From positions 310,001-374,000 of the forward strand of contig NZ_JAIFXZ010000001.1 of NCBI RefSeq assembly GCF_021033825.1: 64,000 nucleotides of DNA, written 5' to 3'. Made by a program: the position numbers and the translations under genes. The DNA is from Dietzia aurantiaca (GTDB taxonomy: Bacteria; Actinomycetota; Actinomycetes; Mycobacteriales; Mycobacteriaceae). Below are positions 52,922 through 63,167 of the stretch, one piece after another. Below the pieces are notes generated by a model. It was not told the origin of the DNA, did no database searches, and was given only the letters and a program-made list of their open reading frames with translations. Every line of letters begins with the position of its first letter. Within the stretch, counting starts at the first letter, position 1.

Positions 52922-54040
52922 TCAGATCTCGCCCCAGCGAGCGCCCATGGCGTTGGCCATCATGGGCCAGGACTGCGCGAGGTCGTCCTCCCAGTAGCCC
53001 CACGAGTGCGTGCCGTTGGGCGCGAAGTCGAAGTGGGCCGGGATCCCCAGCTCGCCGAAGCGGCGGGCGAGGTTCGCGGTGCAGTACTGGGTGGCCGCCT
53101 CGATGATGCCGCCGACGACGGCCTGGTTGGCCAGGGCGACGCCGTTGCCCTTGAGGCGCCAGTTCTCGAGGTTCTCGTGCGGCCCGGGCAGGCCGTTGCC
53201 GGTCGAGATGAACATGGCGGGCAGGGTGCCGTTGTCGCGCTGCTCCTCGAAGCGCCAGGCGCCCCAGACCGGATCGTTGTCGAACCAGCTGTTGCTACCC
53301 GCGACGGGCTCGCCCGGGAACGGGCCCCACATGTTGTTCAGGTCTGCCCCGCCGCGCATGCCGGTGACGATGTTGATGAACTCGTGGCCGATCGGCGTGG
53401 AGGTCTCGGCACAACCCGAGTACGAGCCGATGGCCTGGAACTTACCCGGGTGCTTCTGGGCGATGGTCAGGACCGAGGTGGCGGTCATGGAGATGGCGGC
53501 GAGGCCACGCTTGCGACCCTCGTAGTTGCCGCCGTACTTGCCCTCGAAGAGGTTAGGGAGCTCCTCGGCGAGGTAAGTCTCGAACTTCATGGGGTGGGTG
53601 TCGCTGGCGTAGCGGGTCTGGACGTTGGGGTCCGGCTTCTGCCAGTCGGTGTAGTACGAGAAGGCGCCACCGATCGGGGTGACGGTCCAGGCGTCCTTGT
53701 CACCCATGAACTGCTTGACATTGGACTGCGCCTGCCAGGTGGCCGAGTCCTCGCCGCCGCCGGCACCGTTCACGAGATACAGCACCGGAGCACCCGCGTT
53801 ACCGTCGCGGGGCCCCTGGACGATGTTCGGCACTTCCTGCTGCATGGCGTCCGACCACACCGAGACGATCAGACGGCCGTCCGCCAGCTCGGTCTCGACG
53901 ACCTTGTTGCCGGCCGTGGCCTTGGTGTAGTTGATGGTTCCACCCTGGGCCTGTGCCGTGCCCGTGGCGACGACGGGGACCATGGCGGCCGCGAGGGCCG
54001 CAGTCGCGACCTTCGTGCCGAACCGCTTGACTGAACGCAT
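52922..54040 (-). CDS. mycoloyltransferase (antigen 85-type esterase)
   Basis: A 372-residue exported Ag85-family enzyme. The signal peptide spans residues ~1-31, with an AQA cleavage motif. The nucleophile is the Ser in AAISMTATSV, the acid may be near WFDNDPVWGA, and the His is in NGTHSWGYW. Two Cys (GCAET and QYCTANL) may pair. The family moves mycolic acid between trehalose mycolates, arabinogalactan and, in corynebacteria, serine residues of small porins. It lies downstream of four porin-like micro-ORFs on the same strand. Confidence 0.9.
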   Translation of the reverse strand: MRSVKRFGTKVATAALAAAMVPVVATGTAQAQGGTINYTKATAGNKVVETELADGRLIVSVWSDAMQQEVPNIVQGPRDGNAGAPVLYLVNGAGGGEDSATWQAQSNVKQFMGDKDAWTVTPIGGAFSYYTDWQKPDPNVQTRYASDTHPMKFETYLAEELPNLFEGKYGGNYEGRKRGLAAISMTATSVLTIAQKHPGKFQAIGSYSGCAETSTPIGHEFINIVTGMRGGADLNNMWGPFPGEPVAGSNSWFDNDPVWGAWRFEEQRDNGTLPAMFISTGNGLPGPHENLENWRLKGNGVALANQAVVGGIIEAATQYCTANLARRFGELGIPAHFDFAPNGTHSWGYWEDDLAQSWPMMANAMGARWGEI

Positions 54041-54411
54041 ATTTTCGACGCCTTACTTCTCGATGTTCACAGACCCGTGCCGACTCTTAGCAAAGAGTTA
54101 ACCCGTTTCCCATTGGTCACACAAGCCCCACAGGCCACTCCGACTGGATTCGGAGGACCTCACGGAACTGTAGTTCTTGCCCGCAGTGGTGACCACGAGG
54201 ATCCCATAGCCGTGACGGCCGAGGAAAACCGTGGAGCCCTCTGCGCGGCTCACGTCATCAGTATCGACGAACGACGTGCGCTCGTTACATTTATTAGCAG
54301 ATCCCCATACACCGCGTCGGGGTCGCAGGTCGGAGGCGCCGCGGCATGTCCATCAAATGCGGTGAGGGCGCCGGGATGATCCCGACGCCCTCACCCGCTG
54401 ACCGAGTCAGC
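54041..54411. other. gene-free region upstream of the mycoloyltransferase
   Basis: No reading frame of merit is found in these 371 bases. They hold the terminator at 54361-54395, an inverted repeat (actctt/aagagt near 54082-54097) within the presumed leader of the mycoloyltransferase gene, and moderately AT-rich sequence that probably carries its promoter. No exact -10/-35 pair could be fixed. Confidence 0.5.
54361..54395 (-). terminator. terminator after the second porin-like module
   Basis: A perfect 10-bp stem (54361-54370 with 54386-54395) contains a small inner hairpin (ccggga/tccc). On the minus strand it is followed by GCATTTG. Confidence 0.7.
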
Positions 54412-54573
54412 TCACTTCATGAAGCCGCCGGCGAGAGCCTCCTGGAAGCCCGTGCCCGTGAAGTAGTTCGCAGCCTTGACGAAGTTGTCGACGGTGCCGA
54501 GCAGGCCACTGAGAAGGCCGAACGCGCCCTCCTTGCCGACGATGCCCTCGACGGAACCAAGATCGATGCCCAT
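54412..54573 (-). CDS. PorA-position porin-like peptide, 53 aa (module 2, second gene)
   Basis: A 53-residue peptide starting MGIDLGSVEGIVGKEG and ending FQEALAGGFMK. It shares the signature YFTGxxFxEALAGGF with the peptide at 55298-55450, so the two are paralogues. It has no Cys and no signal peptide, net charge near -2, and a hydrophobic helix over residues 17-38. The ribosome binding site AAGGAG is 6 bases upstream. It is the last gene of the four-peptide run downstream of groEL2, where corynebacteria place porA. Confidence 0.8.
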   Translation of the reverse strand: MGIDLGSVEGIVGKEGAFGLLSGLLGTVDNFVKAANYFTGTGFQEALAGGFMK

Positions 54574-54697
54574 GTTGTTCTCCTTGGGGAATGAGGCCCG
54601 GAGAGATCCGGGGCCGAAGTGTGAGATTGGGTGGGGTGACCACTACACGCCGCAGTCGGGGCGGGGCTCACGGATCAAGTCCGCGAGCGCGCAGGCG

Positions 54698-54844
54698 TCA
54701 CTCGGTCGGAGCCTCGACACTGCCGAGCAGGTCGAGCATGCCCTCGACGCCGTCGCCACCCAGCGAGCCGGCGAAACCGGTGACACCGTCGAGGATGTTC
54801 TTGATGCCGCCGATGAGCGAGCTGATCGCACTGAAGTCAGGCAT
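54698..54844 (-). CDS. PorH-position porin-like peptide, 48 aa (module 2, first gene)
   Basis: A 48-residue acidic peptide (net about -6) starting MPDFSAISSLIGGIKNI and ending GSVEAPTE. It is a paralogue of the peptide at 55500-55643 (both start MPxF, carry IGG near residue 12 and have a Gly-rich middle). It has no Cys and no signal peptide. The ribosome binding site GGGAG is 7 bases upstream. Size, charge, and position after groEL2 resemble corynebacterial PorH (about 57 residues). Its gene precedes the 53-aa gene by 124 bases. Confidence 0.8.
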   Translation of the reverse strand: MPDFSAISSLIGGIKNILDGVTGFAGSLGGDGVEGMLDLLGSVEAPTE

Positions 54845-54915
54845 GTGTATCTCCCTTTATCGTTTCGCCCCGGTCCCCGGGGCCGCGTCAAGCCCCTGCT
54901 TTCGGGACCGTGGCC

Positions 54916-54943
54916 AGAATAGTCTGAGCGAATCCAGAGTCAA
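54916..54943 (-). promoter_or_regulatory. promoter for porin-like module 2
   Basis: On the minus strand TTGACT and TATTCT are separated by 16 bases, close to the sigma-A consensus. They imply a leader of roughly 65 bases before the start of the 48-aa peptide. Confidence 0.6.
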
Positions 54944-55075
54944 TTGTGATCCCCGTCTCGCTCCTGGCTCGAGATAACAATACATTCTCCCGCGCAGAAA
55001 TGTGACCTAAACCACCGCTTTAATCAAGTTCTCAGGCGCCGGTCTAGCTGCGGAGATGCACTGAGTGCAACGAAG

Positions 55076-55097
55076 TCAGGCAAGGCTAACCTTGCAC
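55076..55097. promoter_or_regulatory. candidate IdeR/DtxR box upstream of porin-like module 2
   Basis: A perfect palindrome gcaaggctaaccttgc (55080-55095) lies in a 19-bp window (55076-55094) that matches the IdeR consensus at 14 of 19 positions, including the core AGGCTAACCT. It is about 235 bases before the module 2 start codon and well upstream of its likely promoter, so direct control is uncertain. Confidence 0.5.
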
Positions 55098-55251
55098 GTA
55101 GCGGGGCGTGCGGACAGGCAGGTTCGCGCCGTTCATCGTTAGTCCCCCAACAATTCATGTTAAATGTTCCCTTAAGAAAGCACTTTGGGGGCCGTTTGGA
55201 ACCGAGCGGCGCCCGACGCACTGCGCCCCCGTGTGCTGGAAAATAGACGGA

Positions 55252-55280
55252 GGCCACACCCCGGATCCCAGGATGTGGCC
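55252..55280 (-). terminator. terminator after porin-like module 1
   Basis: A 7-bp stem (ggccaca 55252-55258 with tgtggcc 55274-55280) extends by further pairs with a bulge. On the minus strand a CTATTTTC tract follows. It lies 18 bases past the stop of the 50-aa peptide. Confidence 0.7.
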
Positions 55281-55297
55281 ATGTCGCCAGCGTCAGA

Positions 55298-55450
55298 TCA
55301 CCGCGTGAACCCCCCAGCCAGTGCCTCCTCGAAGTCTCCGCCCGTGAAGTACTCGAGCCCGGAGAACAGGTCTCCGAACCCTCCAAGGAAGTCCGTGAGT
55401 ATGCCGAGCGCGCCGCTGACGCCCGCCAGGGATCCGAATTCAAGGTTCAT
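55298..55450 (-). CDS. PorA-position porin-like peptide, 50 aa (module 1, second gene)
   Basis: A 50-residue acidic peptide (net about -6) starting MNLEFGSLAGVSGALG and ending FEEALAGGFTR. It has a hydrophobic Gly/Phe/Leu-rich helix (residues 13-32) and the shared YFTGxxFxEALAGGF tail. It has no Cys or signal peptide. An AGGAG site is 9 bases upstream. It lies 49 bases after the 47-aa peptide gene of the same module, so the two are probably cotranscribed. Confidence 0.8.
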   Translation of the reverse strand: MNLEFGSLAGVSGALGILTDFLGGFGDLFSGLEYFTGGDFEEALAGGFTR

Positions 55451-55499
55451 CGTGTATCGCTCCTGTGTCGTTGTGGTAACCCAGATCGGGTCGCGGTCG

Positions 55500-55643
55500 T
55501 CAGTTCGCGCTGATGCTGGACAGGGCGTCTACGAAGTCGCCGACTCCGCCCTCCCCTGCGAGCGAACCCGTGAAGAACGTCAAGGCTCCGAGAATGTCCG
55601 TCACTCCTCCGATGAAGTCTGACAGCTGACCGAAGTTCGGCAT
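55500..55643 (-). CDS. PorH-position porin-like peptide, 47 aa (module 1, first gene)
   Basis: A 47-residue acidic peptide (net about -5, no basic residue) starting MPNFGQLSDFIGGVTDI and ending LSSISAN. It has an amphipathic hydrophobic helix and the FFTGSLAG centre, comparable to FAGSLGG in its paralogue at 54698-54844. The ACGGAGAC leader before the ATG equals that of the 47-aa gene at 49413-49556. It is the first gene after the groEL2 terminator. Function as a subunit of an outer-membrane channel is inferred. Confidence 0.8.
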   Translation of the reverse strand: MPNFGQLSDFIGGVTDILGALTFFTGSLAGEGGVGDFVDALSSISAN

Positions 55644-55806
55644 GGGGTCTCCGTTCACAGTGGGTTGATCAGCGCCGGTCCTGGGCGCCTGACCACGACG
55701 CTATCGACCCCGACCCACCACCTCCAGAGGCGCAACGAACATGTAACACCAGGTCATAGCCCTTTTACACAGGATCGTTCAGATGATGTTCCCGTGACAA
55801 AATGGC

Positions 55807-55844
55807 CTGTGGCCCCGTACCGGATTTCCGGTACGGGGCCACAG
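55807..55844 (-). terminator. terminator downstream of groEL2
   Basis: A perfect 17-bp stem (55807-55823 with 55828-55844) with an ATTT loop. On the minus strand CATTTTG follows. It separates groEL2 from the peptide genes, so these need their own promoter in 55644-55806; I could not fix one. Confidence 0.9.
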
Positions 55845-55879
55845 GGCTATCGCTCTGGCGAGCGCGCGTCAGGGCTGGA

Positions 55880-57592
<1,713 letters not shown>

Positions 57593-61940: not shown

Positions 61941-63167
61941 ATGTCCGTCCCGAGTGCAGAGAACACCGGTGCCGATCAGCGCACCGCCGCGAGCCGCGTC
62001 CCGCTCATGCGTCGCGCCGGCCGCGCGCTGATCGCCACCGCCGCCGCCACCGCGCTGGCGGCCGGCCTCACACCGTCGATCGCGAACGCGCAGGAGGTCG
62101 GCACCCTCAGCCCGGAGTCGGTCGCCAACGACGCACTCGGGACGTTCTCCCCCGAGAGCCTGAGTCAGTTGCTGTACTTCGGCAACCTGCCCGGCTCCTC
62201 GGGCTCGTCGATGATGGGCATCGCCAACACACTCGGCTTCTCGCCCAACATGTTCGCCGGCCCGCCGCCGCCGTCGCCGCAGCCCAACCCGAACATCACC
62301 GAGACGAAGATCGTCGGTGAGCCTGTGGTGGACGGCCGCTACGAGCGGTGGCTCATCGACTCCGGGGACATGAAGCGCGGCATCACGGTCGAGGTCTACC
62401 GCGCCGCCAACCCGGGCGCGCCGTTCCTCTACCTGCTCGACGGCGTCGGCTCCGAGCTGCCCAGCGGTTTCATGCAGTGGGGCGCGAAGGAGCAGTTCGC
62501 GAACGAGAACGTCAACCTCGTCATCCCGACCGGCGGCCAGGGCTCCATGTGGTCGGACTGGAACCAGCAGGACCCCGTGCTAGGCATCAGCAAGTGGGAG
62601 AAGTTCATCACCGGCGACCTGCCGCGGCTGCTCGAGCCGCGCATCAGCACCAACAACAACCGCGCGATCGGCGGCATCTCCATGGGCGCGGGAGCGGCCG
62701 TGACCATGGCGACCCGCCATCCGGACCTCTACAAGGGCGTGTTCGGCGTCTCCGGCTGCTACTCCACCGACGCGCTGGGCCAGATCCTGACCCGCTTCAC
62801 CGTCGAGAGCCGCGGCGCGACGCTGAACAACATGTGGGGTGAGCCCGGCAACGAGCAGTGGGTCGCCCACGACGCGATGATCAATGCCGAGAAGCTGCGC
62901 GGCAAGGCCATCTACATGTCCTCGGGCACCGGTGTGGCGAACCCGGGCGACTGGGCCGCGTACAACAACGACGCCGCCAACTTCGTCGCCGGAATGGCGC
63001 TCGAGCAGGCCACGGGCCAGTGCACCCACGCCGCCGACCGGCGCCTGGCCGACCTGGGCATCCCCGCGGACATCGACCACCTGCCCACCGGCATGCACAA
63101 CTGGTCGTACTACTCCAAGCAGATCCCCGTCGCCTGGAACTCGATCAAGCACTCGGTGGGCGCGTGA
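61941..63167 (+). CDS. mycoloyltransferase (antigen 85-type esterase), second copy
   Basis: A 408-residue exported Ag85-family protein. A twin-arginine-free signal peptide spans residues ~1-50 (core ALIATAAATALAAGL, cleavage after ANA). A ~70-residue linker with PPPPSPQPNPN follows. The catalytic domain has the nucleophile in IGGISMGAGAA and the His in TGMHNWSYY; VSGCYST and GQCTHAA hold two Cys. The AGGAG site is 6 bases before the ATG. It transfers mycoloyl groups at the cell wall; acceptor unknown. Confidence 0.92.
   Translation: MSVPSAENTGADQRTAASRVPLMRRAGRALIATAAATALAAGLTPSIANAQEVGTLSPESVANDALGTFSPESLSQLLYFGNLPGSSGSSMMGIANTLGFSPNMFAGPPPPSPQPNPNITETKIVGEPVVDGRYERWLIDSGDMKRGITVEVYRAANPGAPFLYLLDGVGSELPSGFMQWGAKEQFANENVNLVIPTGGQGSMWSDWNQQDPVLGISKWEKFITGDLPRLLEPRISTNNNRAIGGISMGAGAAVTMATRHPDLYKGVFGVSGCYSTDALGQILTRFTVESRGATLNNMWGEPGNEQWVAHDAMINAEKLRGKAIYMSSGTGVANPGDWAAYNNDAANFVAGMALEQATGQCTHAADRRLADLGIPADIDHLPTGMHNWSYYSKQIPVAWNSIKHSVGA

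Follow-up and report, generated by a model that had tools for sequence, protein, structure and literature searches.

The locus under study lies in a 64,000-nucleotide stretch of the Dietzia aurantiaca genome (the window, meaning the whole stretch of DNA that was analysed) and is anchored upstream by groEL2 (55880–57517, minus strand, 545 aa), which shares 90–99% identity with the copies in 20 other Dietzia genomes, a second paralog elsewhere being about 57–61% identical. The gene order on the minus strand is groEL2, A1, B1, A2, B2 and a mycoloyltransferase gene. A terminator scan placed the intrinsic terminator of groEL2, with an 18-pair stem and a T-rich tail, at 55806–55845 (minus strand). 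It is followed by the proximal pair, consisting of the type A gene A1 (55500–55643, minus strand, 47 aa) and the type B gene B1 (55298–55450, minus strand, 50 aa), and by an inverted repeat with a T-rich tail 3′ of B1 (55252–55280, minus strand), a probable terminator recognized by eye and scored in part at 55263–55248. A motif scan revealed a promoter-like TTGACT-16-TATTCT site (54916–54943, minus strand) 5′ of the distal pair, and alignment of 20 genomes showed conserved columns in the stretch upstream of A2 that contains this site. The distal pair comprises A2 (type A, 54698–54844, minus strand, 48 aa) and B2 (type B, 54412–54573, minus strand, 53 aa), with an inverted repeat 3′ of B2 (54361–54395, minus strand) that was judged by eye to be a probable terminator and received no score in the terminator scan. 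The last gene (52922–54040, minus strand) encodes a 372-aa MytC/Cmt1-like mycoloyltransferase with a PF00756 domain and a signal peptide recognized by eye. Because hairpins follow groEL2, B1 and B2, and a promoter-like site precedes A2, A1-B1 and A2-B2 each look like a separate transcript.

The original prediction had described four micro-ORFs of these lengths running in one direction after the groEL2 terminator and forming twin modules, and this observation was confirmed, with all four on the minus strand and two paralogous types arranged in tandem pairs (A1 and A2 46% identical, B1 and B2 42%). The predicted ribosome binding sites were found as a GGAG or AGGA Shine-Dalgarno-like site ahead of each of the four ATGs. 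The peptides are acidic or near-neutral as described (net charge −5, −6, −6 and −2 for A1, B1, A2 and B2) with no signal peptide visible by eye, and Cys, said to be lacking in the four, is absent together with His from all 68 Dietzia peptides collected below. Two sequence features fared less evenly. An IGG motif near residue 12 is present in the two type A peptides of the window but does not hold across the genus, and amphipathic helices are supported for A2 (hydrophobic moment against shuffles, 0.001) but not clearly for A1 (0.087), B1 (0.117) or B2 (0.067).

The conservation of the locus was investigated in 23 Dietzia genomes, in 20 of which the interval after groEL2 could be read (the contig ends first in G005 and G017, and no groEL2 was found in G021). 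A-B pairs with open frames were present in all 20 readable genomes, giving 34 type A and 34 type B peptides, and a mycoloyltransferase gene followed the pairs in the same order in every case. Duplication, a further element of the original prediction, was seen in the window, and 13 of the 20 genomes have more than one pair (12 with two pairs and one, G019, with three), but seven genomes carry one pair, which is always the distal type. The A-B gaps measure 48–66 nt in proximal pairs and 102–169 nt in distal pairs. In the mycoloyltransferase tree described below, the rows nearest to the window enzyme (G020 and G001) come from single-pair genomes without the proximal pair, suggesting that the proximal pair (55298–55643 in the window) has been gained or lost more than once. 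Genome G022 was found to carry two mycoloyltransferase genes in tandem after its single pair (L045, 2549–4767). A contig scan for the type B peptide returned records of D. massiliensis, D. cinnamea, D. natronolimnaea and two Dietzia sp.; these five were among seven named loci, the other two being Rhodococcus records.

Selection on the peptides was estimated by Nei-Gojobori counts as mean pN over mean pS, with 12 distinct sequences each for A1 and B1 and 19 each for A2 and B2. The proximal genes gave pN/pS ratios of 0.26 (A1) and 0.21 (B1), with pN below pS in 66 of 66 pairs each, which shows purifying selection on the proximal pair. The distal genes gave 0.74 (A2; pN below pS in 157 of 171 pairs) and 0.80 (B2; 145 of 171), figures that carry some alignment doubt in the peptide tails. 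All four peptide types behave as coding genes, with the distal pair diverging faster, and genus-wide conservation together with pN/pS rules out chance ORFs. The high distal ratios, and A2 C-terminal tails that differ in length in the type A alignment, could instead mark the distal pair as a duplicate under loose constraint, with only the proximal pair being functional where both exist. We consider this improbable, since a distal-type pair with open frames, ribosome binding sites, Gly-Ser and a GF end is found in 20/20 genomes, and the seven single-pair genomes retain exactly this type.

The peptides are paired, short, Gly-rich and predicted to be helical, which would also suit two-peptide bacteriocins or modulin-like amphipathic peptides. 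This reading is very improbable: a double-glycine leader was not seen by eye, the ORF list holds no frame longer than 148 aa wholly inside the interval of the window between groEL2 and the mycoloyltransferase gene, the partner gene is a mycoloyltransferase in all 20 genomes, and the net charge of the 68 peptides ranges from −9 to 0, not cationic.

Among the 26 distinct type A sequences, M1, P2, F4, G26 and S27 are invariant. Gly26-Ser27 is kept in 34/34 type A peptides, and a Gly-Ser lies within the first 14 residues in 34/34 type B peptides. Comparison of the two types by hhalign revealed kinship across a core of 23 columns (probability 51%, E 1.6e-4). AlphaFold2 predicted helices at residues 4–31 and 33–45 of A1 (mean pLDDT 75) and at 3–36 and 39–49 of B1 (mean pLDDT 70), with Ser27 (A1) and Ser7 (B1) falling within the long first helix rather than in the turn, at moderate pLDDT. 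Mycoloylation sites are described as Ser/Gly-rich in PMC11066868, and PMC11927696 reports in vitro mycoloylation of PorA by MytC, with Ser15 as the modified residue and a model placing it in the linker between two helices. The location of the conserved Ser within predicted helices of A1 and B1, unlike Ser15 of PorA, slightly lowered our confidence in the explanation favored below.

The product of 52922–54040 matches the PF00756 domain with 85.1 bits. Its best relative of solved structure is C. glutamicum Cmt1 (E 4e-50, 174 bits), followed by PS1 (116 bits) and Ag85A (82 bits), and direct comparison gave the same order (181, 136 and 94 bits), with 36% identity to Cmt1. Ten PF00756 matches were obtained from its own genome, two of them in one frame and two without similarity to Cmt1, PS1 or Ag85A; the product of 52922–54040 scored best to Cmt1 (181 bits) and the next 145 bits. 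A second PF00756 mycoloyltransferase-like gene lies in the window at 62361–63131 (plus strand; 140 bits to Cmt1). In a tree of 53 rows, for which the program warns of long branches, the window enzyme groups with Cmt1, the groEL2-linked enzymes of genera g21, g23, g25 and g27, and the Dietzia paralog L181, itself on a long branch (96/94). PS1, Ag85A, five other Dietzia paralogs and the g9 and g13 enzymes lie outside the Cmt1 group. The tree takes in 17 of the 20 Dietzia genomes (without G004, G011 and G013) and six Dietzia paralogs, the fragment in L186 having been dropped. Of the Dietzia paralogs compared, the window enzyme comes nearest to Cmt1/MytC in sequence. MytC/Cmt1 is a protein O-mycoloyltransferase, and by analogy the Dietzia enzyme in its clade may likewise transfer mycolate to proteins.

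The known systems at this site are corynebacterial. Channel genes of Corynebacterium sit at the groEL2 site, according to PMC3792995 and PMC5944148, and the groEL2-downstream position named in the original prediction is the same site. C. glutamicum PorH and PorA resemble the Dietzia peptides in being two small acidic peptides without a signal peptide (for Dietzia, by eye), encoded in tandem after groEL2. The next gene differs, being a mycoloyltransferase gene in Dietzia and ppk2 in published Corynebacterium loci. In Corynebacterium, PorH surface display depends on PorA and on mycoloylation, and neither a signal sequence nor an export route is known, according to PMC12632848.

At the level of sequence, no Pfam or NCBIfam model was passed by the Dietzia peptides. 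The best NCBIfam match among 52 distinct peptides was that of B1 to PorACj_fam (NF038022), with E 9.2e-5 and 22.4 bits, below the 28-bit cut-off; matches to this model at E ≤ 1 were obtained for 7 of 26 distinct type B and 2 of 26 distinct type A sequences. The PorA model (NF033925, 50 bits) gave no match at E ≤ 1 among the 26 distinct sequences of either type, and the PorH model (NF033938, 30 bits) was not passed, with one of 26 type A at E 0.023 and none of 26 type B. As controls, C. glutamicum sequences scored 83.5 bits (PorA) and 39.5 bits (PorH). Three further hits, Pfam YrhK for A1 (E 0.1), the NCBIfam SseD translocon for 8 of 26 type A (best E 0.0043) and Pfam DDT for 6 of 26 type B (best 0.0083), were set aside as composition matches. 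Solved structures yielded no relative by sequence (best E 0.68 for B1, and 0.55 for PorA).

Known channel peptides were also scored with the Dietzia models, a peptide being counted as beating its shuffles when at most 1 of its own 200 shuffles reached its score. PorACj-family peptides, six in number and taken from L116–L121 with L115 left out, did so in 5/6 cases with the type A model and 4/6 with the type B model (hhalign probability 70% and 13%). The corresponding counts were 1/5 and 3/5 for PorA (hhalign 78% and 43%, over short stretches) and 0/3 and 1/3 for PorH (2% and 8%). The shuffle control favors a distant link to PorACj, which is probably the closest known relative of the Dietzia peptides, ahead of PorH and PorA. 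The likeness to PorH/PorA that had been proposed stands for location and character; in sequence, the PorA, PorH and PorACj models are unpassed and the profile comparison with PorH is negative. PorACj of C. jeikeium is a homo-oligomeric channel of 40 aa that also lies downstream of groEL2, as stated in PMC3792995. A PorACj-like core reads DFFAGFGDIFGGLGDLFSG in L121 and DFLGGFGDLFSGLEYFTG in Dietzia B1. C. jeikeium has a single gene, whereas Dietzia has A-B pairs encoding longer peptides that stay below the cut-off of the PorACj model. The seven loci above that cut-off (L115–L121) all contain groEL2, and two below it (L123 and L124) do not. In genome G074 of genus g3 (L129), groEL2 is followed by a tandem of two PorH-PorA-like pairs, a parallel duplication; g3, with its PorACj-, PorA- and PorH-like genes, is presumably Corynebacterium.

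MspA is a beta-barrel. The likeness proposed between MspA and the Dietzia peptides is a general role as mycomembrane channels; they are different kinds of protein. The MspA family (PF09203) was matched in 0/23 Dietzia genomes, compared with 44 of 61 family genomes and 24 of 31 genera in the positive control. The genera without a match in the 61-genome sample were g1 (Dietzia), g3, g11, g13, g17, g20 and g24. For g11, g17, g20 and g24, no peptides were found after groEL2 in the genomes read, so that the peptides are no simple replacement of MspA. A pore-forming protein has been purified from D. maris (PMC4901239), and a later paper puts Dietzia channels, namely the D. maris protein, in the MspA superfamily (PMC9233653). 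On that assignment Dietzia would have another channel, which counts against a channel role for the peptides; the assignment is unsupported by the PF09203 search of the 23 genomes.

The peptides could also be mycoloylated mycomembrane peptides that are not channels and have a surface or wall-linking role, as with ProtX. PMC9671496 and PMC12632848 describe ProtX as a small mycoloylated protein, predicted to be helical, that probably acts as a phage receptor and for which no pore has been demonstrated. The rapid change of the distal pair (pN/pS 0.74 and 0.80) would suit a surface target of phage. We regard this alternative as rather unlikely, although it carries some weight, because the genes come in pairs next to groEL2 and the peptides have a core resembling PorACj, both of which point to channel peptides, and no Dietzia genome gave an MspA match.

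The explanation that we favor, and consider somewhat probable, is that the groEL2-[A-B]n-mycoloyltransferase locus encodes O-mycoloylated, signal-less helical mycomembrane peptides that form two-component channels similar to PorA/PorH. This reading draws on the position of the pairs between groEL2 and a mycoloyltransferase gene in all readable Dietzia genomes, purifying selection, the core shared by A and B, the shuffle-control scores of PorACj peptides, the corynebacterial groEL2 site, the kinship of the adjoining enzyme to Cmt1 with a Gly-Ser conserved in every A and B peptide, and the contrast in MspA matches between Dietzia and the family. It is weakened by the unpassed PorA, PorH and PorACj models, the low hhalign probability between type B and PorACj, and amphipathicity that is not clearly above shuffles in three of the four window peptides. 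Proceeding from the observed genes, pairing, selection, location and enzyme kinship, we infer export, modification, oligomers and a pore along the following lines. Acidic, helical A and B peptides without a signal peptide would leave the cell and would receive a mycolic acid ester, made by the adjoining MytC/Cmt1-like enzyme, on the Ser of the conserved Gly-Ser. A and B may then assemble in the mycomembrane as water-filled two-component channels, the putative Dietzia counterpart of Corynebacterium PorA/PorH or PorACj. Where present, the proximal pair, which evolves slowly, would serve as the housekeeping channel, and the faster distal pair may face pressure at the surface. The original interpretation as a PorH/PorA-like channel system is thus partly supported, and the downstream MytC/Cmt1-like enzyme, the genus-wide conservation and the absence of an MspA match in Dietzia are new beyond it. 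A literature search, outside which most subscription papers fell, returned no report of the Dietzia peptides or of a locus combining groEL2, mytC and peptides.

Related arrangements were sought in other genera. In a first set of 39 groEL2 loci from 29 genera (a 150-base 40th was dropped, and L131 and L146 are incomplete), five had a Cmt1-like gene within 3 kb of groEL2 (g9, g21, g23, g25 and g27). Forty further groEL2 loci of about 6 kb contained 22 with a Cmt1-like gene, all scoring above PS1 and Ag85A; these loci were picked knowing the outcome of the first 39, and 22/40 is not an unbiased rate. With a filter for ORFs led by a ribosome binding site and poor in R, K, C, W, H and P, peptides of 21–49 aa on the groEL2 strand were found in 19 of the 22 loci with a Cmt1-like gene vs 4 of the 18 without. 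On the groEL2 strand the filter yielded 48 ORFs from 23 loci, 28 of them with an MGS start; on the opposite strand it yielded 4 ORFs from 4 loci, none with an MGS start. In six genomes of g23 and g27, the gene of a 25-aa MGSTT peptide precedes that of an MGS[IL] peptide, which is 30 aa long (37 aa in G126); in L195–L197, L202, L204 and L205 this MGS pair lies after groEL2, next to one Cmt1-like gene or two. pN was below pS in 15/15 pairs in both the MGSTT and the MGS[IL] groups, in 21/21 in the g9 group and in 3/6 in the MGSI-T group. Only 2/23 groEL2-linked MGS peptides beat their shuffles with the type A model and 4/23, all MGSI-T, with the type B model, and an NCBIfam scan of ten such non-Dietzia peptides gave no match. 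As far as their sequences tell, the MGS peptides share place and character with the Dietzia peptides, and homology is not established. Genome G079 of g13 (L145/L213), which lacks an MspA match, was seen to carry four peptides of 45–46 aa after groEL2 in two look-alike pairs, and no mycoloyltransferase was found within 6 kb of this groEL2.

Weak matches to the Dietzia profiles elsewhere in the family were read at 15 loci, 14 of which, including same places or near copies, encode peptides of 28–44 aa led by a ribosome binding site, with a core such as LSDFFGAFSDLFGALDFFSGS; the exception is L114. These loci include R. globerulus and R. tukisamuensis. The 11 tiny non-Dietzia peptides obtained in this way were found via the Dietzia models, and their high shuffle-control scores are partly selected. 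In L106 (g15), the gene of a 29-aa MPDFS peptide and a Cmt1-like gene are arranged tail to tail; L106 is the only one of 17 such loci searched with this neighbor within the stretch covered. The PorACj-like peptides of L075 (g21, 39 aa) and L077 (g9, 44 aa) lie near the same neighboring frame, a second shared site; we take this frame to encode an acyl-CoA dehydrogenase.

We tentatively propose, giving it a little less than an even chance, that the DNA downstream of groEL2 represents an ancestral locus for protein mycoloylation in the mycolata, combining a MytC/Cmt1-type enzyme with dedicated signal-less acceptors of about 21–60 aa, often paired, which would build helical channels in Dietzia, Rhodococcus-type and other genera, with Corynebacterium PorH/PorA and PorACj as one branch. 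Routine gene finders may miss many such peptides because of their small size. What is known of small helical porins and of protein O-mycoloylation comes mostly from Corynebacterium, and the route by which signal-less peptides reach the mycomembrane is given as unknown in PMC12632848. Dietzia would offer a second tractable system, with paired PorACj-like peptides, a MytC-like enzyme and no MspA match. Its locus points to probable pairs of enzyme and substrate and leads to the prediction that proteins are mycoloylated outside Corynebacterium too. Rhodococcus-type genera have MytC-like genes together with tiny Gly-Ser peptides at this site, so that the prediction can be tested widely. Collectively, these observations suggest that outer-membrane pores built of helical peptides, the pore itself being inferred, may exist beyond Corynebacterium.
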